A stretch of 64,000 bases of DNA from Fidelibacterota bacterium (GTDB lineage: Bacteria; Fidelibacterota; UBA8477; JABMPR01): assembly GCA_018673925.1 (NCBI GenBank), contig JABHBL010000074.1, forward strand, positions 1 to 64,000. The letters run 5' to 3'. Shown here piece after piece: positions 43,009-52,283 of this stretch. Every line of letters begins with the position of its first letter. The stretch's first letter is position 1. The notes below the pieces were generated by a model. That model did not search any database. It was not told the origin of the DNA and saw only the letters and a list, made by a program, of their open reading frames with translations. Both the position numbers and the translations under genes were made by a program.

Positions 43009-43593
43009 TCAGAGGAGCTCAACCCAGGCTGTTCTGATCATCTCTATAGCTAGCGCAACCAGTAAAAGCCCCATAACACGACTCATGATTTCCAGACCCT
43101 GTTCCCCCAGAAATTTTTTGATGTATCTCGCATAATACATGGCCAGCCAAAAGATGAAAAGATTTAGCAACATGGCCGCTAGAGGCACCCAAAATCCATA
43201 TTTCGAAACCAGAATAATTATTGCTGTAATGGCACCGGGGCCAGCAATGAGAGGAGTGGCCATGGGAATGACGATATCCTTGGAATAATCTTTATCATCA
43301 CCCAGAGTTACACCCAAAACATATAGTAGTCCCAAAGAAAGCAGGATAAGCCCACCACCTACCTGGAATGAAAACATTGTTATGCTAAAAAATTCAAGAA
43401 TACCTTCCCCCACAAATACGAAAAGAGTGAGCAAAATGAGAGATACACGGATTGCTCGGTGGGCACTGTGCTTTGCACGTTCTTCAGGATAATCTTTGGT
43501 TAATGTCATAAACACTGGCAATCCACCAAACGGATCCATAATGACCAACAGGGTCACAAAGGCATGCATAAAAGCATTAAAATCTAGAGTCAT
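43009..43593 (-). CDS. MarC-family integral membrane protein
   Basis: A 194-residue membrane protein with six likely helices and MarC/UPF0056 motifs: VTLLVIMDPFGGLPVFMTLT, the second-half repeat IPMATPLIAGPGAITAIIIL and GLLLVALAIEMI. The family includes SnatA-type amino acid transporters and E. coli members linked to amino acid export. Its start overlaps aroB by 4 bases, so it is the last gene of the aromatic operon; exporting an aromatic amino acid or intermediate is a reasonable inference. Confidence 0.9.
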   Translation of the reverse strand: MTLDFNAFMHAFVTLLVIMDPFGGLPVFMTLTKDYPEERAKHSAHRAIRVSLILLTLFVFVGEGILEFFSITMFSFQVGGGLILLSLGLLYVLGVTLGDDKDYSKDIVIPMATPLIAGPGAITAIIILVSKYGFWVPLAAMLLNLFIFWLAMYYARYIKKFLGEQGLEIMSRVMGLLLVALAIEMIRTAWVELL

Positions 43594-44705
43594 TCGCCAC
43601 CCTCCCAGGCAGTTCTAATGGCATCTACAGCCAATTTTATCATCAACGTTGGAACCCCGGTCTGCATATAGGCATCTCCAAGACTATGTAGCAAAACAAA
43701 GTTTAACTGTGAATTCGCTACCTTTTTATCCAGGCGGGTTGCCATTTCAATGGCTTCTGGGTTTAAAGACTCCAGTGGAAGCTCAAGGGGAATGCTTTTC
43801 AGCATGGCTGACAGTTTATCCCAATCTTTCATCGATAAATCACCGACCTGATTCGAGAGCCACCCTGCACCAAACATGCCAAGAATGACGGCCTCACCAT
43901 GTCGGACAACACCATATCCAAGCGTCGATTCAATAGCATGACCGAGCGTATGCCCAAAATTTAAAATCCTACGCAAATCCGCTTCCCTCTCATCTGCTTC
44001 TACCACTTCAGCTTTTAGCTCACAGCTTCGAGTAATTGCTTGAATGAGGATATCGCCAGAGTCAACCGCCAGACACGCTTCCATATGATCAACGAGAAAC
44101 TCCAGATAGCTGGTATCGCGAATGACACCCATCTTAAACATTTCTGCATATCCCGAGATGCGATCACGTACCTGCAGGGTTTCCAGGGTTTTTATATCCA
44201 TGATGACTAAGTCAGGTTGATAAAAGCTCCCAATCAGATTTTTACCACTGGAATGATTAACACCGGTCTTACCACCCACAGCGGCATCCACCATAGATAA
44301 CAGAGTAGTTGGAATATGGACCAGTTTGACCCCGCGATAGAGAATGCTTGCCACAAAACCACCCAGATCAGTAACTACACCACCTCCCAGAGTAAGAATG
44401 GTCCCAGAGCGTTCCATGCCCTGGGCGATCAAAGCGGACATCACTTGCTCAGCCGAAGCCAGGGTTTTGTATTCTTCTCCTTCAGGGATCAGGATGGTTC
44501 GAGTTACCAAGCCGGCCTGGTTAAGCGCTTCCCGTATGGGTCCACCATAGAGATCATTGACTGCAGCATTGCTAATAATACCTACTGGTCCAGAGGCACC
44601 AACACTTGTGAGTAACTCTGAGACCGAATCCAACAGATTCCGACCCACGCGAATCTCGTAGGTGCCAGTTTTGTAGGTGACAGTAAGAGCTGATGAATCA
44701 GGCAT
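43590..44705 (-). CDS. aroB: 3-dehydroquinate synthase
   Basis: A 371-residue enzyme, second step of the shikimate pathway (DAHP to 3-dehydroquinate, NAD and divalent metal). Signatures are GGGVVTDLGGFVASILYRGVKLVHIPTTLLSMVDAAVGGKTGVN, ELKAEVVEADEREADLRRILNFGHTLGHAIE and the metal His in VRHGEAVILGM. It overlaps aroK upstream by 8 bases and marC downstream by 4. Confidence 0.97.
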   Translation of the reverse strand: MPDSSALTVTYKTGTYEIRVGRNLLDSVSELLTSVGASGPVGIISNAAVNDLYGGPIREALNQAGLVTRTILIPEGEEYKTLASAEQVMSALIAQGMERSGTILTLGGGVVTDLGGFVASILYRGVKLVHIPTTLLSMVDAAVGGKTGVNHSSGKNLIGSFYQPDLVIMDIKTLETLQVRDRISGYAEMFKMGVIRDTSYLEFLVDHMEACLAVDSGDILIQAITRSCELKAEVVEADEREADLRRILNFGHTLGHAIESTLGYGVVRHGEAVILGMFGAGWLSNQVGDLSMKDWDKLSAMLKSIPLELPLESLNPEAIEMATRLDKKVANSQLNFVLLHSLGDAYMQTGVPTLMIKLAVDAIRTAWEGGE

Positions 44706-45222
44706 GATATCTTTCTAATTTTTCAAGTATTTCATGGGCGATCATATCTGGAGCCCTTTCACCTGTATTTATGCGGAGTGAGGCGGCTTCGCCATACCCA
44801 ACCTGGCGATTGTCCAAAATTTCCTGTAATTTTTTTATCGTATCCTTGCATTCGGTTAACAGGGGACGATGATCAGAATGCTCCAGTCGAGCTGCAGCTT
44901 CTTCAGGAGAGACATCCAGCCAGATAGTGAGATGATCCTTAAGATATTCCACGTTTTCAGGTCGGGTGACAATACCGCCCCCACAAGGTATGATGGCTTC
45001 ACTTAGTGAAGCTGTTTCCATGAGAACCTGAGCTTCGTAGTCACGAAATCCATCCTCACCGTGGGCTTCAAAAATGGTAGGGATGTCATTTCCCGAAATT
45101 TTTTCAATCTCGTTATCAATATCCAATAATTGCCAGCTGAGGGCATCAGCCAAAAGTTGGCCAACAGTACTTTTTCCAGCTCCCATCAAGCCAATCAAGT
45201 ATACTTTACTAATGCTCATCAT
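44698..45222 (-). CDS. aroK: Shikimate kinase
   Basis: A 174-residue P-loop kinase making shikimate-3-phosphate. It shows Walker A GLMGAGKSTVGQLLA, the DIDNEIEKISG shikimate-site Asp, FRDYEAQVL (Arg), the PCGGGIV loop and the lid HSDHRPLL. Start at ATG 45222, with a second ATG directly after it. 18 bases downstream of aroC in the same operon. Confidence 0.95.
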   Translation of the reverse strand: MMSISKVYLIGLMGAGKSTVGQLLADALSWQLLDIDNEIEKISGNDIPTIFEAHGEDGFRDYEAQVLMETASLSEAIIPCGGGIVTRPENVEYLKDHLTIWLDVSPEEAAARLEHSDHRPLLTECKDTIKKLQEILDNRQVGYGEAASLRINTGERAPDMIAHEILEKLERYHA

Positions 45223-45240
45223 TAAATCCCTTCGGCTACT

Positions 45241-46395
45241 CTACACGCCTGTAGCAGCCATGTGCGCTTTGACCTGCACAAGAGAATCCCCACCAAACTT
45301 TTCAAGAATAGCATCAGTCAAAACCAGAGCCATCATAGCCTCTCCAATTACGGAAGCAGCTGGTACGGCACAGGCATCAGTTCTTTCCTTGTGCGCTATT
45401 CCTGGTTGATGGGTTTTGATATCCACCGATCTCAAGGGTCTTGCCAGTGTTGGGATGGGTTTCATGGTGACTTGAACCTGAATCAGCTCACCATTTGACA
45501 TCCCGCCTTCTATACCCCCGGCATGATTTGTGGCTCTGCGAATCGTGTCATTCTTTTTGACAATTTCATCATGGACCTGAGATCCAGTAGCCTCACCAAC
45601 ATCCAGACCATCTCCAATACTCACGGATTTCATGGCATTGATTGACATCATGGCAGCGGCCAGGCGTGCATCCAGTTTGCGATCCCAATGTGTATAGGAT
45701 CCTAGACCAGGTGGTAAACCCGATGCAAGAACCTCAAAAACACCACCCACAGAATCCCCAGCTTTACGAGTTACATCAATATGCTTGATCATGGCCTCAG
45801 CAGCTACTTGATCCAAACATCTCACATCTGAAGCATCCGCTGCTTTATTCGTATCTTTGTGCAATTGATCTGGTTTTGCCGTGGCTTTGATAGGACCAAT
45901 CTGTATGACATGGCTGAATATCTCAACACCTACTTCACTTAAAAATGTACGGCAAACTGCACCCAGGGCTACCCGCATGGCCGTTTCACGTGCAGATGAC
46001 CGCTCCAGAACATTACGGATATCACTAAAGCCAAATTTTTGAACTCCAGCCAGATCAGCATGACCTGGACGAGGCAAGGTCACTTCTGGAACAGGATTCA
46101 AGGGTGCCTCGTGTGACATTTTATCCTGTTTCCAGTTTTCCCAATCCCGATTCTGAATCCACAATGCTATGGGAGAACCAAGGGTATATCCATGCCGCAG
46201 ACCACTGGTTATTTCAGCATGATCCTTCTCAATAGCCATGCGACCACCACGACCGTGACCCATTTGCCGACGAGCCAGATCTCTGGCAATCAAATTTTCT
46301 GAAAGAGGCACACCGGCAGGAAAACCTTCAAGAATTCCTGATAGGCCTTTGCCGTGTGATTCCCCTGCGGTGAGAAATTTCAGTCTATTTAGCAT
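45241..46395 (-). CDS. aroC: Chorismate synthase
   Basis: A 384-residue FMN-dependent enzyme making chorismate from EPSP. Family signatures present: GESHGKGLSGILEGFPAG, RRQMGHGRGGRMAIEKD, DIRNVLERSSARETAMRVA and the late IKTHQPGIAHKE. Its length is usual for the long bacterial form. It is followed by aroK; upstream a 142-base gap with palindromic sequence separates it from aroE. Confidence 0.97.
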   Translation of the reverse strand: MLNRLKFLTAGESHGKGLSGILEGFPAGVPLSENLIARDLARRQMGHGRGGRMAIEKDHAEITSGLRHGYTLGSPIALWIQNRDWENWKQDKMSHEAPLNPVPEVTLPRPGHADLAGVQKFGFSDIRNVLERSSARETAMRVALGAVCRTFLSEVGVEIFSHVIQIGPIKATAKPDQLHKDTNKAADASDVRCLDQVAAEAMIKHIDVTRKAGDSVGGVFEVLASGLPPGLGSYTHWDRKLDARLAAAMMSINAMKSVSIGDGLDVGEATGSQVHDEIVKKNDTIRRATNHAGGIEGGMSNGELIQVQVTMKPIPTLARPLRSVDIKTHQPGIAHKERTDACAVPAASVIGEAMMALVLTDAILEKFGGDSLVQVKAHMAATGV

Positions 46396-46412
46396 ACTAA
46401 TAATCCTTATCC

Positions 46413-46476
46413 CTCGACTCCGCTCGAGATGACAAAAACTTGTCTCCCTGAGCTTGTCGAAGGGTTCATAGACAAG
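46413..46476. repeat. REP-like palindromic sequences between aroE and aroC
   Basis: Two small hairpins: CTCGA/TCGAG (46413-46417 with 46424-46428) and CTTGTC/GACAAG (46439-46444 with 46471-46476) enclosing CCCTGAGCTTGTCGAAGGG. Both motif types (CTCGACTCCGCTCGAGATGAC-like and CTGAGCTTGTCGAAGG) are familiar as dispersed intergenic elements in bacteria, and no coding potential is seen. Confidence 0.55.
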
Positions 46477-46537
46477 CTACCAACAGGCAATTCCTGACCA
46501 TGGTTTTGTCTAAAAATGAGTTGAGAGGAATAGAAGA

Positions 46538-47404
46538 TCACTCAAATTTCCGCTTAAAACCTGTAATTTTGTTGTGAACGGCTTCTCGCATCTCATTCAT
46601 CTTTATACGGTTCCAATCCTGGGGTCCAAACCAAACATCTACTGAGGCCATGGCCTGATAAAGATACATATCTAAACCGGAAACGGTTTGACAGTCTGAA
46701 AATATTGCCTCTGAGAGCAAGCGTGTATTCAAAGGATTAAAAATAGTGTCAACTACAACATCAATTGATTCCAGAAGATCTCCATCCAGAGGACTCTCAT
46801 TCTGTTTTGGTTTCATTCCGATAGGTGTACAGTTGACCAGGCAATAGGCATCTTCTATGGGTGCAACTGCCCTTTCATCCCAGGAGCAACCAACCAATTT
46901 CATGCCTTCAGCGGAACTGCTCATATCCTTAATTAGAGTTTTGGCCCTCTCGGGATCTCGTGCAATCACAGTGGTTTTCCCAGCTCCAATGCGGGCCAGG
47001 CCAAAGGTGATGGCTCTTGCAGCACCTCCACTCCCCAGAACGACTACTTTTTTTCCCGCCAGATCTACATCTGCGGCTTCCAGGGATTTCACAAAACCAT
47101 ACCAGTCTGTATTGTATCCTGTGAGTTTCCCATCATGGCGTCTGATACAATTCACAGCACCAATAGGTGCAGTACGATCATTCACGTTATCCAGAAAGGG
47201 AATTATATCCTCTTTGTGGGGGATGGTCACATTAAATCCAGCCAACTTCTTGGCAGAAGGGAGATTTACCCAGCGTTCCAGATCTCCCTGTACAACCTTG
47301 ATCTTTTTATACTCAGCTTCCAGGGCAAGTTGTTCATATATCCAACCATGCATAAAATCGCTGACACTTTGTCTGAGAGGATCACCAATAACGGCTAATT
47401 TCAC
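46538..47404 (-). CDS. aroE: Shikimate dehydrogenase
   Basis: A 288-residue NADPH enzyme reducing 3-dehydroshikimate. Signatures are AVIGDPLRQSVSDFMHG, FNVTIPHKEDIIPFLD with the catalytic Lys, AVNCIRR, NTDWYGF, the nucleotide motif VLGSGGAARAITFGL and NCTPIGM. It uses a GTG start (47404) with AGGAG 7 bases upstream. It lies between aroA and aroC. Confidence 0.95.
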   Translation of the reverse strand: MKLAVIGDPLRQSVSDFMHGWIYEQLALEAEYKKIKVVQGDLERWVNLPSAKKLAGFNVTIPHKEDIIPFLDNVNDRTAPIGAVNCIRRHDGKLTGYNTDWYGFVKSLEAADVDLAGKKVVVLGSGGAARAITFGLARIGAGKTTVIARDPERAKTLIKDMSSSAEGMKLVGCSWDERAVAPIEDAYCLVNCTPIGMKPKQNESPLDGDLLESIDVVVDTIFNPLNTRLLSEAIFSDCQTVSGLDMYLYQAMASVDVWFGPQDWNRIKMNEMREAVHNKITGFKRKFE

Positions 47405-47448
47405 ATTTATCTCCTGATTCGTGTGTTCAAAATGCTTATTCTAAACTT

Positions 47449-48708
47449 TTAACTTATTAAACCCCGAAGTTCATCAAAGAAACCAGGATAAGAAATATCT
47501 ACACAATCCGGGTCATCCAGAGTTGCTGGTAATTTGCTAATCAATCCTGCGATACCCAGTGTCATGGCAATTCGATGATCATGAAAAGTTTTGACCTTGC
47601 CCCCCTTGAGAGGTGTTGGTCCTTCTACATGAAATCCATCGGGTTGCTCAAATATTTTGGCACCCCAGGCACTAAGATTGGTCACTATCGCAGCGATTCG
47701 ATCTGATTCTTTCACACGCAATTCTTCAGCTCCCGTCACCACAGTTTCACCTTCAGCTTGTGTAGCCAATAGTGCAATGAGAGGCAATTCATCAATCAGA
47801 TTAGGAATCTGTTCCGGATAGATTTGAATACATTTTAACTGAGATGCTCGGATGCGTATATCAGCAATGGCTTCACCGCTGAGTTTTGCTTTATTAGCGA
47901 CAGTAACTTTTCCACCCATATCCTTAACAGCTTTGAGAAAGGCGGTTCTGGTTGGATTAATCCCAACACCGCGAAGGATTACATCTGAATCAGGAACCAA
48001 TAGGGCTGCAGCAATAAAAAAGGCTGCCGCTGAAAAGTCACCTGGTATCACAAAATCTATTGGCTTGAGAGGTCTAGTCAGTTGATGGACTGTCACCTCA
48101 CGTCCTTTGACCTTGATACGTGCACCCATAGCCTTGAGCATTTGCTCGGTATGATCGCGACTAAAAGCTGGTGATTTGACCGTGGTTTGTCCCTTTGCGT
48201 GCAATCCTGCCAAAAGAATGGCTGATTTAACCTGAGCGCTGGCATATGGAAGCTGGTAATCCAGTGCCCACAGATCACGTCCACTCAGCATCAGAGGTAA
48301 ATATTTTCTTTTGTTGGCTGAAATATTGGAACCCATTTGCTGGAGAGGTCTGAAAACTCTGTCCATGGGTCGGTTGCTTAGAGATTGATCCCCTGTGAAC
48401 TGAACATGGATGGGGTGAGCCGCTAAAAGACCCATCATCAGACGTGCCGTAGTCCCCGAGTTTCCACAATCAAGACCCAGATCTGGTTGCTTGAAAGGGC
48501 GTAATCCACCTCCCTGGACATGGATGACACCATGCTTTTCTTCGATATGAATTCCACAGTTGATCAAGGCGCGCTGAGTTGTGGCAACATCGGCCCCGGG
48601 ATTCAGATTTTCAAGGCGACTAAGACCATCGCTCAATGCAGTGAACATGAGGGCTCGATGGCTTATTGATTTGTCACCAGGTAGCCTAATTTCTCCAAGC
48701 AAAGCCAT
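47449..48708 (-). CDS. aroA: 3-phosphoshikimate 1-carboxyvinyltransferase (EPSP synthase)
   Basis: A 419-residue EPSP synthase with GDKSISHRALMFTALSDG, LDCGNSGTTARLMMGLLA, the RDHTEQML loop, the DFSAAAFFIAAALLVP motif, RVKESDRIAA and TFHDHRIAMTLGIAGL. AAGGAG lies 6 bases before ATG 48708. In the glyphosate-contact motif GNSGTTARLMMG the usual Gly-Asn-Ser-Gly-Thr order is kept, so no obvious resistance-type change. 20 bases after the DAHP synthase gene. Confidence 0.97.
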   Translation of the reverse strand: MALLGEIRLPGDKSISHRALMFTALSDGLSRLENLNPGADVATTQRALINCGIHIEEKHGVIHVQGGGLRPFKQPDLGLDCGNSGTTARLMMGLLAAHPIHVQFTGDQSLSNRPMDRVFRPLQQMGSNISANKRKYLPLMLSGRDLWALDYQLPYASAQVKSAILLAGLHAKGQTTVKSPAFSRDHTEQMLKAMGARIKVKGREVTVHQLTRPLKPIDFVIPGDFSAAAFFIAAALLVPDSDVILRGVGINPTRTAFLKAVKDMGGKVTVANKAKLSGEAIADIRIRASQLKCIQIYPEQIPNLIDELPLIALLATQAEGETVVTGAEELRVKESDRIAAIVTNLSAWGAKIFEQPDGFHVEGPTPLKGGKVKTFHDHRIAMTLGIAGLISKLPATLDDPDCVDISYPGFFDELRGLIS

Positions 48709-48728
48709 GGGTGACTCCTTCTAAAGGA

Positions 48729-49745
48729 TCAGTCCAGTTTTTTTCCAACAGCTTCAGCAACCAGTCTGATTCGATCTACCAGATCTTTGAAATCTGCAGG
48801 AACCAATTGCTGGGGTCCATCACTGAGAGCAACTTCAGGGTTAGGATGAACTTCAACCATGACACCCTGAGCTCCAGCTGCCACCCCAGCTAAAGAAAGG
48901 GGTAACACCTTTGATCGTTTTCCTGCAGCATGACTGGGATCAACGACTACAGGGAGATGGGTCAAACGCTGAAAGGCTGGAATGGCACTCACATCCAGCG
49001 TATTCCTGGTATGATCCACATAGGTACGAATACCTCGTTCACATAGAACCAGCTTTTCATTTCCTTCGTTCAAAATATACTCAGCCGCCAGGATAGTTTC
49101 TTTCACTGTCGCTGACATTCCGCGTTTTAAAAAGATGGGCATACCAGTACGAGCGGCAGCTTTGATAAGCGTAAAATTCTGCATGTTCCGAGTACCTATC
49201 TGGAGCATGTCAGTATGTTGGGCCGTGATATCCAGGACTTCTGTATCTGTCACTTCAGTCACTGTGGGTAAGCCAACTTCTTTTCCAACCTGTTTCAGGA
49301 TTTTGAGACCTTCAACACCCAGACCCTGGAAGGAATAGGGAGAAGTTCGTGGTTTGAATGCACCACCACGGAGAAAGTGACCTCCAGCTGCTTTTACAGC
49401 ATCACCTACTGTTTTGGTTTGCTCATAGGATTCAATCGAACAGGGACCGGCAATAATAGACACGCCGGCGCCACCAATACGAGCTTCACCCACATTCACG
49501 ATGGTATCCTGTGGTTGCCATTCCCGTGAGGCTAATTTATAAGGTGTACTGATCTCAATAACATTTGAAACTTCTGGCAAGGCTTGAAGGTGCTGCTTGC
49601 CGCGTAGAGGTTTGGTTCCCATCACTCCGACAATGGTACGGGTTTCACCAGGAGCAGGCTTGGGTGTATATCCTAATTTGGTAATTTCCTGCTGGACTCT
49701 ATCGATTGCTTCTGGGGAAGCATTTACATTCATTATGACAATCAT
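48729..49745 (-). CDS. aroF: 3-deoxy-7-phosphoheptulonate synthase (type I beta)
   Basis: A 338-residue DAHP synthase, first step of the pathway. An N-terminal ferredoxin-like regulatory domain (residues ~1-70, MNVNASPEAIDRVQQEITKLGY) as in Thermotoga DAHPS is followed by the KDO8P/DAHP synthase barrel: VSIIAGPCSIESYEQT, GGAFKPRTSPYSFQGLG, LQIGTRNMQN, VVVDPSHAAGKRSKVLPLS. The N-terminal domain suggests feedback inhibition by Tyr or Phe. Second gene of the operon. Confidence 0.94.
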   Translation of the reverse strand: MIVIMNVNASPEAIDRVQQEITKLGYTPKPAPGETRTIVGVMGTKPLRGKQHLQALPEVSNVIEISTPYKLASREWQPQDTIVNVGEARIGGAGVSIIAGPCSIESYEQTKTVGDAVKAAGGHFLRGGAFKPRTSPYSFQGLGVEGLKILKQVGKEVGLPTVTEVTDTEVLDITAQHTDMLQIGTRNMQNFTLIKAAARTGMPIFLKRGMSATVKETILAAEYILNEGNEKLVLCERGIRTYVDHTRNTLDVSAIPAFQRLTHLPVVVDPSHAAGKRSKVLPLSLAGVAAGAQGVMVEVHPNPEVALSDGPQQLVPADFKDLVDRIRLVAEAVGKKLD

Positions 49746-49803
49746 CGTATACTATCCTTTAATAGTGGCCTATAAGGTTTTATTTCTGTTAAGTAATTGC
49801 AAC

Positions 49804-51129
49804 TTAAATCGAGGTTCCTGTTCGCTCTACAACGAGGAACAGCGTCTTATTGTCTTTCAAGTCCTGAATCCCAAACTGACTCACATTCAGTTCATATAGT
49901 TCAGCTGCTCGGGCTGGTGCAATGACAGCGGTAGTGTCTGAATATTCCCCCCGATGCAGCTTCCTGGCAGCTTCAGCAGTATCTTCAGCTTCAATGTGAG
50001 GAACCTCCGTAAAATTCTCCCTTAAAAAACGTGAACACTGTTTAAGAGCTTGAGGGTGAGATCGAACTTCAGATATCTCTTTGGGATCAACTCCTGCTTT
50101 TGTAATAAGACATTGGTTTACCTGAATGTGGAACATAGAGCGTACCTTGCAGCGAGCTTTGGCCAGAGCATGAATACTCTCATGTACCACGCCCCCCCGT
50201 GCATTTTCCATGGCGATAATTCCACGATCTATTTCATAAGTATACAAACTTTCCATGACATTTCGACTGGTGAGACAGGGTTTGGTATCTATGTCTCCCA
50301 GCTTTTCCTCTTTCATATAATTGCGTGCTGCTTCCTCAGAAAAGCTGCCGGGGATGCCCTGATATCCAATCACCTCAGGGGGTGAATCGGGTCGATACAC
50401 ACGAGCTTTCACTGCATGAACCGATCGTGAGAAGTCGGTGAGCATTTCAGGTGTATAGGGGTTGTAATACTGCAAATCATGGAATAGTTCTTCAGTATCC
50501 TGACAGGTTTGTTCAACCACATGATGCACTTGTCTGAAACCATGTGTGTCTACAGCAGTGGATTGAATATCCATCCCCTTCATGACACGACCCACAAAGT
50601 GGGTGATACCTTGAGAGCGAGCCGCTAATCTGTCATGATCTTCAACCTCAAGATCAATGAGTCTGCAACCCCAGGATTCAAAAATATTGCGCCAGTTACT
50701 CTCTGTAACTCCATCAATACGAGTGGGACAGAATACCATCCTCAGATCACGATCCCGTTTGTAGGAATCAGGTCCAAACATGGGATGTGTATTCAATATT
50801 TGAACGGTTGAGGGTAATTCCGCAATCATCCAGTCTCGAATGCGGGTTTTTACTGAGGCCACATCAATCAAAACCTGACCTGGTCGACTTAATGGAGATA
50901 TTTCCTTTAGCAAACTCTCCATCCGACTGATAGGAACAGCCAAAAAAACAGTCTGTTGCTCCATGACAGTTTCAAGATTCGCCCAGGGATATCCTGAGGA
51001 CTGAGCCTGCCCAGATAGGTCGCGTTCATCTGTGATGATGGGCTGATAATCACTACTCAACAAGTCGGCAAGCAGGGCTCCAAAGCGTCCAAAGCCTATT
51101 ATTCCAATCTTTTGTTTATTTCGTCCCAC
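49804..51129 (-). CDS. Fused prephenate dehydrogenase-prephenate dehydratase (TyrA-PheA)
   Basis: A 441-residue bifunctional protein. Residues ~5-245 are a prephenate/arogenate dehydrogenase (GIIGFGRFGALLADLLSSDY, DVASVKTRIRDWM, NTHPMFGPDS, QGITHFVGR). Residues ~255-441 are a prephenate dehydratase (VIGYQGIPGSFSEEAARNYM, IDRGIIAMENARGGVVHESI, EVRSHPQALKQC, EDTAEAARKLH). No C-terminal ACT regulatory domain and no chorismate mutase domain are present. I choose GTG 51129, which has AAAAGGA 8 bases upstream, over TTG 51156. First structural gene of the operon, behind the attenuator. Confidence 0.92.
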   Translation of the reverse strand: MGRNKQKIGIIGFGRFGALLADLLSSDYQPIITDERDLSGQAQSSGYPWANLETVMEQQTVFLAVPISRMESLLKEISPLSRPGQVLIDVASVKTRIRDWMIAELPSTVQILNTHPMFGPDSYKRDRDLRMVFCPTRIDGVTESNWRNIFESWGCRLIDLEVEDHDRLAARSQGITHFVGRVMKGMDIQSTAVDTHGFRQVHHVVEQTCQDTEELFHDLQYYNPYTPEMLTDFSRSVHAVKARVYRPDSPPEVIGYQGIPGSFSEEAARNYMKEEKLGDIDTKPCLTSRNVMESLYTYEIDRGIIAMENARGGVVHESIHALAKARCKVRSMFHIQVNQCLITKAGVDPKEISEVRSHPQALKQCSRFLRENFTEVPHIEAEDTAEAARKLHRGEYSDTTAVIAPARAAELYELNVSQFGIQDLKDNKTLFLVVERTGTSI

Positions 51130-51203
51130 TGTGTTTATCCTTTTTTCCTGGTTCAAGCTTTGTTATAAACCCAACCCGGCTTTTCTTACGGTTTCGCGGT
51201 GGT

Positions 51204-51226
51204 ACCATCAAGCTGTGCTTGATGGT
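51204..51226 (-). other. Strong hairpin directly after the attenuator T-run
   Basis: Perfect 10-bp stem ACCATCAAGC/GCTTGATGGT with a 3-base loop, between the attenuator and the TyrA-PheA start. It could protect the 5' end of the readthrough mRNA or insulate the structural genes; no T-run follows on the minus strand. Confidence 0.6.
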
Positions 51227-51258
51227 AAAAAAAACCCCCCGCCAATTGACGAGGGTGA
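51227..51258 (-). terminator. Attenuator terminator of the aromatic operon with competing antiterminator
   Basis: On the minus strand CCCTCGTC (51255-51248) pairs with GGCGGGGG (51243-51236) around an AATT loop, followed by G and eight T (51234-51227): a strong intrinsic terminator in the 5' leader, with no minus-strand gene upstream to end. TCACCCT (51258-51252), which overlaps its 5' arm, can instead pair with AGGGTGA (51293-51287) at the leader peptide stop codon, giving a 7-bp antiterminator. Confidence 0.78.
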
Positions 51259-51286
51259 AAGTGTTCAAATATACAAATTTAAACCA

Positions 51287-51331
51287 TCACCCTGATCGCA
51301 TAAAAAAGTAATATGATGCATTCCATTTCAT
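51287..51331 (-). CDS. Aromatic amino acid leader peptide (MKWNASYYFFMRSG)
   Basis: A 14-codon open frame, ATG 51331 to TGA 51289-51287, with adjacent Tyr-Tyr-Phe-Phe codons (7-10) and a Trp codon (3). It is followed at once by the antiterminator and terminator segments. CATCAT in codons 5-7 can pair with GTGATG (51290-51285), making the alternative 1:2 hairpin of classical attenuators. A ribosome stalled on the Tyr/Phe codons would cover that segment and favour antitermination. No good ribosome-binding site is seen; the candidate promoter would give an almost leaderless mRNA. Confidence 0.72.
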   Translation of the reverse strand: MKWNASYYFFMRSG

Positions 51332-51340
51332 TTCGAGGTG

Positions 51341-51368
51341 AATATAGACCTGAGTTTTGCGCATGCAA
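51341..51368 (-). promoter_or_regulatory. Candidate promoter of the aromatic operon
   Basis: Minus strand TTGCAT (51368-51363), a 16-base spacer and TATATT (51346-51341), ending 9 bases before the leader peptide ATG. The same pattern (TTGCGT, 16 bases, TATATT) lies before tRNA-Val, which supports both. Confidence 0.5.
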
Positions 51369-51482
51369 AGATTTTGAACTCTAATTTGCCTTAACAATTG
51401 GAAAACGGCCTTTCAGCCTTTGAAAGAATCCAGTATTGGCCTCCATCCCTCACTCCGCTATATTTACTGATAAGAATCCACC

Positions 51483-52283
51483 ATGAGCAAGATCAAGCAA
51501 ATACGCCCCTCAGCTGTGTCAGGTATGTTCTATCCTGGTGAGCCTGACACATTAAGCGATCAAATCTTCGGCTTCATCCATGAAAAGCCAATCGAAACCA
51601 CCGCGGTTCCCAAAGCTATAATTGTTCCTCATGCCGGTACTGTCTATTCAGGTTCGATAGCTGCATCTGCATATCGTACCCTACTCCAATACAGACATGT
51701 CATCCACAAGGTGATACTTCTCGGACCGGCTCATCGTGTTTATCTGCATGGATTGGCGCTCCCCACAGTAGACCAATTCCAGACGCCCCTGGGCGAGATC
51801 AATCTGGACACAAAGACCATTCAAAACCTGGTTGATGATTATCCTCAGATATCCTATTCTGATCAAGCTCACGCCGAGGAGCATTCCCTTGAAGTCCAGC
51901 TTCCCTTTTTACAGGAGGTTCTGGCCAGCTTTAGGCTGATTCCATTCGTAGTTGGTGAAGCATCGCAAAAAGAGGTTGGTGATGTTATCAAACATCTTTG
52001 GGGTGGCGAGGAGTGTCTCATCGTCATTTCCACTGACTTGAGTCACTTTCACAGTTATGACGAAGCTGTCAAGCAAGATACTGTTACAGCCAACCACATC
52101 GAAACCTTTCAAGGAGAGCAGTTGGGAGATCGCTCAGCCTGTGGCCGTATACCCATCCGGGGATTGCTTCATATAGCTCAACAAAAGGGGTTGTCCATCA
52201 AACGATTCGATCTTCGAAACTCAGGTGACACATCTGGCCGCAAAGACCAGGTTGTTGGTTATGGTGCGTGGGGCTTTTTTTGA
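51483..52283 (+). CDS. amrB: AmmeMemoRadiSam system protein B (MEMO1 family)
   Basis: A 266-residue MEMO-family protein, related in fold to extradiol dioxygenases. Motifs are SGMFYPGEPDTLSDQI, VPHAGTVYSGSIAASAYR, LGPAHRVYLHG, AEEHSLEVQLPFLQ and STDLSHFHSYDEA, which carry the conserved His/Asp/Cys-type metal site region. Function in bacteria is unknown. It is the first of three adjacent genes that form the complete AmmeMemoRadiSam set, divergent from the aromatic operon. Confidence 0.92.
   Translation: MSKIKQIRPSAVSGMFYPGEPDTLSDQIFGFIHEKPIETTAVPKAIIVPHAGTVYSGSIAASAYRTLLQYRHVIHKVILLGPAHRVYLHGLALPTVDQFQTPLGEINLDTKTIQNLVDDYPQISYSDQAHAEEHSLEVQLPFLQEVLASFRLIPFVVGEASQKEVGDVIKHLWGGEECLIVISTDLSHFHSYDEAVKQDTVTANHIETFQGEQLGDRSACGRIPIRGLLHIAQQKGLSIKRFDLRNSGDTSGRKDQVVGYGAWGFF

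Follow-up and report, generated by a model that had tools for sequence, protein, structure and literature searches.

The window, by which we mean the whole 64,000-nt stretch of DNA analyzed, comes from a marine bacterium of the Candidatus Neomarinimicrobiota (Fidelibacterota) and carries on its minus strand an aromatic amino acid operon preceded by a short leader. Eight minus-strand genes lie across 43009-51156, seven of which were assigned by Pfam to aromatic biosynthesis, whereas the eighth, marC, is not an aromatic gene. The first gene encodes a tyrA-pheA fusion, the protein relatives of which are 53-93% identical (13 named genome records). The gene upstream of the leader, a Memo-like gene (51483-52283), is on the plus strand. 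As it is divergent, the leader terminator cannot end an upstream gene and the 300-odd intergenic bases serve the starts of both genes.

Table 1. Leader features and operon genes of the window.
Feature	Coordinates	Strand	Basis or remark
Predicted -35 element TTTGCA	51364..51369	minus	consensus scan, 17-nt spacer
Predicted -10 element TATATT, ends 9 nt before leader ATG	51341..51346	minus	
Leader peptide ORF MKWNASYYFFMRSG, ATG 51331, stop TGA 51289-51287	51287..51331	minus	Tyr/Phe run conserved in relatives
Regulatory codons TAT TAC TTT TTT (Tyr7 Tyr8 Phe9 Phe10)	51302..51313	minus	
Antiterminator 5' strand AGGGTGA (last codon plus stop codon region of ORF)	51287..51293	minus	
Inner antiterminator stem, 5' strand GTTTAAAT	51277..51284	minus	
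Inner antiterminator stem, 3' strand ATTTGAAC	51263..51270	minus	
Antiterminator 3' strand TCACCCT, shares bases with the 5' arm of the terminator	51252..51258	minus	
Intrinsic terminator, 8-bp stem, AATT loop, eight-T tail	51227..51255	minus	
tyrA-pheA start codon	probable GTG 51129; longest frame from TTG 51156	minus	read off sequence
tyrA-pheA fusion, prephenate dehydrogenase plus prephenate dehydratase	49804..51129	minus	Pfam PDH_N and PDT
aroF, DAHP synthase	48729..49745	minus	Pfam
aroA, EPSP synthase	47449..48708	minus	Pfam
aroE, shikimate dehydrogenase	46538..47404	minus	Pfam
aroC, chorismate synthase	45241..46395	minus	Pfam
aroK, shikimate kinase	44698..45222	minus	Pfam
aroB, dehydroquinate synthase	43590..44705	minus	Pfam
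marC-family membrane protein, final gene of syntenic block	43009..43593	minus	Pfam; synteny

The order of the eight genes was identical in all eight genus genomes fetched over the full length of the block; in the sister genus just the first two operon genes were found within 12 kb. On the minus strand between 42900 and 51400 our scanner found no terminator other than that of the leader. Control of all eight genes by one switch, as a sequence-only reading of this DNA had proposed, is thus plausible from gene order and the lack of an inner terminator, although the inclusion of marC means that the genes under control would not all be aromatic. No TrpA match exceeded the family cut-off in the window's genome, a 90% complete MAG. 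Tyr and Phe may accordingly be the main products that this organism draws from the shikimate pathway, which would explain a Tyr/Phe switch before the whole pathway. A TrpA match was present in 15 of the 19 genus genomes and was above the cut-off in five, the window's genome not being among the five. HisG was found in 7/19, again without the window's genome, and tyrA-pheA was matched in 16/19. Amino acid pathways are therefore patchy across the genus, as sampled by incomplete MAGs. PF04715 was tried as a TrpE marker and its count (0/19) was dropped, as it misses a fused TrpE-TrpG-like frame of 607 aa in L106.

The leader peptide, the terminator and the 7-bp antiterminator reported by the sequence-only reading were all found on the minus strand where it had placed them. 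AGGGTGA (51293-51287) pairs with TCACCCT (51258-51252) over 7 bp, and the pairing is extended by an inner stem of 8 bp, GTTTAAAT:ATTTGAAC, which that reading had not mentioned. The terminator hairpin, CCCTCGTC-AATT-GGCGGGGG (51255-51236), is followed by a G and eight T residues to 51227. When the 244-nt leader region was subjected to 4000 dinucleotide shuffles, a terminator was obtained in 72, a terminator plus a preceding Tyr/Phe ORF in one and the same combination plus an antiterminator in none. A scan of the 64-kb window with Tyr/Phe, Trp, His, branched-chain and Thr/Ile codons hit the leader site alone. Directly after the T run of the terminator lies a perfect 11-bp palindrome, TACCATCAAGC-ACA-GCTTGATGGTA (51203-51227). 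Of 17 genus/family loci, seven have here a hairpin of 11-12 bp whose outer pairs are exchanged and the others have a decayed hairpin or none, and the core pattern occurs at a single place in the whole genome.

Of 80 related genomes, 65 gave a match in a tyrA-pheA protein search, in many cases to just one of the domains. The leader was found in all 16 loci fetched (15 from the genus, including the window's own, and one from the sister genus), and in the 16 genus loci with a readable tyrA-pheA start (L002-L016 and L080) both the Tyr/Phe run and the terminator were present, so that one condition under which the sequence-only reading would have been refuted, relatives having the operon but neither of these features, did not occur. 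Two further genus genomes, G004 and G016, also carry the leader, either at the end of a contig or ahead of a partial gene. We searched 245 genomes of the phylum with a covariance model derived from the 16 leaders; it gave a single match in 17 of the 19 genus genomes and in that of the sister genus, and also matched one more distant genome, G134. The two genus genomes lacking a model match (G008 and G010) are 63% and 72% complete and lack the gene match too. The run reads YYFF in most genus leaders, YYYF in L013 and NYFYF in the sister genus, such that YYFF, YYYF or YFYF is present in all 18 genus/family leaders, and the residues preceding the run are variable. In L007 (G011) an extra T after the Tyr/Phe codons changes the peptide end to SYYFFYALGVMV and shifts the stop codon downstream, leaving the run intact.

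All terminator cells pair in the 16 sequences (100%), and a double change occurs at one terminator pair, a count equaled or exceeded in 37 of 500 shuffles. For the antiterminator, 90.0% of cells are paired (18 of 500 shuffles as high), two pairs have double changes versus 1.5 expected (234 of 500), and the covariation score was equaled or exceeded in 68 of 500. The stems barely vary inside the genus and family and hence covariation is weak there; we therefore rejected within-genus covariation as proof of the antiterminator. Thus, of the conserved codons and covarying stems that had been suggested as a check, the former were found throughout and the latter hardly at this depth. In G005 (L012) the antiterminator is partly lost, and the scanner found just a 5-bp pairing.

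Outside the family we examined the best 30 pheA loci, G134 included, from the 140 of 245 genomes having a match. Tyr/Phe leaders with terminators were found in 14 of these 30 loci (nine in family f11, one in f23, one in f24 and three in f27). G134, a member of f11, was the weakest match to the covariance model (E 0.0065) and its stems differ from those of the genus; its leader, MATNYYYKFFMNNGLRIRP, has a 9-bp antiterminator, and the terminator lies directly before pheA and tyrA. The antiterminators of other families are built from different stems (GGGTTGAGG:CCTCAACCC, GGGTTGGAA:TTCCAACCC, GAGGTTT:AAACCTC, GGGTTTTG:CAAAACCC and others), suggesting that these families keep the attenuator logic with changed stems, although one of the 14 leaders (L149) has no antiterminator of at least 5 bp. 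Sixteen of the 30 loci have no terminator within 400 nt upstream, and in two of them (G037 and G060) another coding frame reaches right up to pheA. In the tyrA-pheA fusion loci of family f6 (L018-L031 and L081-L083) the Tyr/Phe matches consist of two ORFs in L081, where they overlap a terminator located 3.3 kb ahead of the gene. These ORFs (antiterminator score 11.6) were taken as chance, as were a few Trp matches in the f6 loci.

Specificity was assessed by a control in which a fixed 400-nt upstream stretch was searched for Tyr/Phe runs (at least 4 in 7) and His runs (at least 3 in 7) at both pheA and hisG. In the 30 pheA loci this gave 14 terminators, 13 Tyr/Phe leaders, no His leader and one locus at the Trp threshold. 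In the best 30 hisG loci by score, taken from 66 genomes with a match, it gave 25 terminators, 22 His leaders (18 with at least 4 His) and one Tyr/Phe leader. These counts indicate that the leaders match their operon. Six of the seven genus hisG loci satisfy the His test; the seventh, L084, reads MMINHRNHT and no terminator was seen there by the scanner.

The His-run leaders before hisG, found in the genus and in other families (L084-L090 and L164-L193), have features of their own. The distance from stop codon to terminator is 62-64 nt in six genus loci versus 23-36 nt in 22 others, and the gap to the antiterminator is 7-26 nt with no fixed value (24 loci with an antiterminator score of at least 12). 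G052 has two tandem His-run leaders before hisG, each with its own terminator (L176, 1148-1312). At the genus ilvB loci (L110-L113) the scanner found nothing; in the four stretches, read by eye, coding sequence seems to lie directly upstream, and hence these loci provide no test of an ilv leader. A trp operon is present in five genus genomes (L105-L109) and was not found in the window's genome. Its promoter, TTGACA-17-TACAAT/TACACT, is overlapped in four of the five loci by GCACTAGTAC or GTACTAGTAC, which we take to resemble the TrpR operator. In four of the five loci the first ATG lies 6-9 nt after the -10 box and begins an ORF of 21-25 aa whose final part contains one or two Trp codons (e.g., SWWRLAS and LWNQWRS). 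The scanner found no terminator in any of the five, and the ORF could be a Rho- or translation-dependent Trp leader.

The leader of the window is preceded by a putative sigma-70-like promoter. The -10 box TATATT is invariant in 16/16 aligned leaders, and the -35 element is TTTGCA in the nearer relatives and either TTGAAA/TTGAAT/TTGGAT-like at a 16-nt spacing or TTTATT in the others. In 18/18 genus/family leaders, 8-10 nt lie between the end of the best promoter match and the leader ATG. With start codons picked by eye, 12 of 14 leaders from other families have 7-8 nt between -10 box and ATG, and 7/7 genus His leaders have 9-10 nt. As a control, random ATGs of the window have a promoter match at 7-10 nt in 107 of 2997 cases, and TA-N3-T boxes do not peak there at the window's 53 gene starts, taken from the longest frames, two lying at 7-10 nt. 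With the usual spacing after a -10 box, transcription would start 0-3 nt before the leader ATG. From a start codon 7-10 nt after the -10 box we infer that the leader mRNA is probably nearly leaderless. The C. glutamicum aroR transcript is likewise said to have been found leaderless by Neshat et al. in 2014. The predicted start site lies upstream of the peptide and not downstream of 51287, the position that the sequence-only reading had named as refuting it.

In the genus/family loci, 6-9 nt separate the last Tyr/Phe codon and the antiterminator (8 or 9 in 14 of 16), and in other families 13 of 14 loci have 9-10 nt, whereas the stop codon falls at a variable position, 3-18 nt after the start of the antiterminator. 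The constant is thus the distance from codon to antiterminator rather than from stop to antiterminator, as a switch operated by a stalled ribosome needs. Note that the gap was counted from the final Tyr/Phe codon in the seven-residue segment richest in these residues, with a search range tied to the stop codon, that the counts come from related loci rather than independent events, that the value for L012 refers to a different 5-bp pairing and that L154 has a further Tyr codon nearer to the antiterminator.

Folding was computed with an assumed ribosome footprint of 11 nt past the A-site codon. With Tyr7, Tyr8 or Phe9 in the A site, the antiterminator is predicted at -17.7, -16.8 and -16.3 kcal/mol, respectively, before the terminator 3' arm exists, and it persists after that arm is added. 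Under the same assumption, Phe10 in the A site gives the terminator beside a shortened antiterminator, and a ribosome at the stop codon gives the terminator only. Without a ribosome the predicted fold varies with RNA length: RNA up to 51249 folds as the antiterminator (-20.2), whereas the equilibrium fold of the complete leader of 109 nt (-25.1) includes the terminator.

The leader thus combines a short ORF with cognate codons, a terminator between that ORF and the first gene and an antiterminator that excludes the terminator, the last being without a 5-bp pairing in L149 and reduced in L012. We conclude, with a probability of about 93%, that it is a ribosome-mediated transcription attenuator sensing charged tRNA-Tyr and tRNA-Phe, in agreement with the sequence-only reading. 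In the mechanism we propose, RNA polymerase would start a few nucleotides before the leader ATG and a ribosome would load at the 5' end of the RNA and trail the polymerase. When Tyr- or Phe-tRNA is short, the ribosome would wait with Tyr7, Tyr8 or Phe9 in its A site and its front edge would halt just before AGGGTGA, so that the antiterminator (7 + 8 bp) would form, capture the terminator 5' arm and allow the operon to be transcribed. When Tyr and Phe are plentiful, the ribosome would reach the TGA inside the antiterminator strand and cover that strand, and the terminator would form.

The classical leaders of the E. coli pheA and trp operons begin with an untranslated segment that contains a ribosome site, and they form a 1:2 hairpin. 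By contrast, the present leader is probably near-leaderless and has no conserved 1:2 hairpin. The 6-bp 1:2 hairpin that had been proposed (CATCAT with GTGATG) does exist in the window sequence, and an untranslated whole leader at equilibrium does contain the terminator, both of which would suit Tyr/Phe attenuation of the E. coli three-hairpin type, where the 1:2 hairpin enforces termination when the leader is untranslated. We consider that version unlikely, as the pairing is not conserved among relatives (77.1% of cells paired, with one pair broken in 7/16), is absent from both predicted folds of the untranslated RNA and is at odds with the predicted formation of the antiterminator by ribosome-free RNA to 51249.

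Less probable still is that the ORF is translated while the terminator acts as a constitutive start-up brake or as the 3' end of an sRNA, the Tyr/Phe codons being irrelevant to termination. Intrinsic terminators are common near promoters and the equilibrium fold of the whole leader contains the terminator, as such a brake would have it, but a brake would account neither for the agreement of amino acid with operon in the pheA and hisG leaders, nor for the gap of 8-10 nt held in most loci despite shifting stop codons, nor for the retention of the alternative pairing with different stems. Least probable of all is a metabolite- or protein-binding RNA (riboswitch, T-box or TRAP-like) with an incidental ORF, which the layout of terminator and antiterminator would serve equally well, since conservation extends to the Tyr/Phe codons, about 105 nt would leave little room for an aptamer, and no Rfam family reached its gathering threshold in the window except a tRNA. 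The nine Rfam matches within 51150-51420 (up to E 10) were all far below gathering scores, and 20 leader-bearing loci of relatives gave only tRNA-Sec and a TPP riboswitch.

The closest known case to this Tyr/Phe attenuator is the aroR attenuator upstream of aroF in C. glutamicum, attributed to Neshat et al. (2014) in PMC11802643 and described as having a Phe-Tyr-Phe leader (PMC11802643, PMC4046766). Both have a mixed Phe/Tyr leader peptide before an operon with DAHP synthase, although the former controls the aroF operon of an Actinobacterium and ours precedes shikimate genes plus tyrA-pheA in Neomarinimicrobiota. With E. coli pheL and trpL, as outlined in PMC11802643 and PMC1183508, it shares a cognate-codon leader peptide and, by prediction, a response to charged tRNA. 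Leader peptides on leaderless transcripts are reported in PMC8079986 and PMC11857589 for leuL, trpL and ilvL of Streptomyces lividans and for ilvBNC of C. glutamicum, in another phylum and for other amino acids; the S. lividans start sites were determined by RNA-seq, whereas ours are predicted.

The sequence-only reading held that such control is hardly described in the FCB group. This needs qualifying, as attenuation has already been proposed in Bacteroidetes: extracts of the respective articles mention 'strong clues' that amino acid operons of Flavobacterium psychrophilum are preceded by leader-peptide attenuators (PMC9723704), the cis-regulatory motif Bacteroid-trp, RF01692 (PMC2864571), and sORFs 'reminiscent of leader peptides' (PMC7366714). 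These are leaders before amino acid operons in FCB-group relatives, and the extracts contain no Tyr/Phe case; RF01692 had no match in the window at its gathering score. A 2010 survey gives leader-peptide attenuators as known just in Proteobacteria and Actinobacteria and adds Firmicutes (PMC2965389). For the phylum itself, we found no report of leader-peptide attenuation in Marinimicrobia/Neomarinimicrobiota in the open-licence PMC literature. The proposed switch is of a classical kind, in a phylum for which no earlier report was found there.

We give even odds to a broader proposal, that the phylum widely uses ribosome-positioned attenuation to control amino acid operons, with near-leaderless leader ORFs, no conserved 1:2 hairpin and, in the Tyr/Phe leaders, a fixed ruler of three codons from the last Tyr/Phe codon to the antiterminator, and that this type of attenuation had an origin or a retention separate from that of the proteobacterial form. 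If true, this would be a compact, phylum-wide variant of the attenuator. The finding places classical attenuation, which needs coupling of transcription to translation, in a marine phylum of which few members are in culture, among them Fidelibacter multiformis (PMC11652737). A testable readout of aromatic amino acid shortage would be provided by metatranscriptomes, from the amount of short leader RNA relative to that of the operon.
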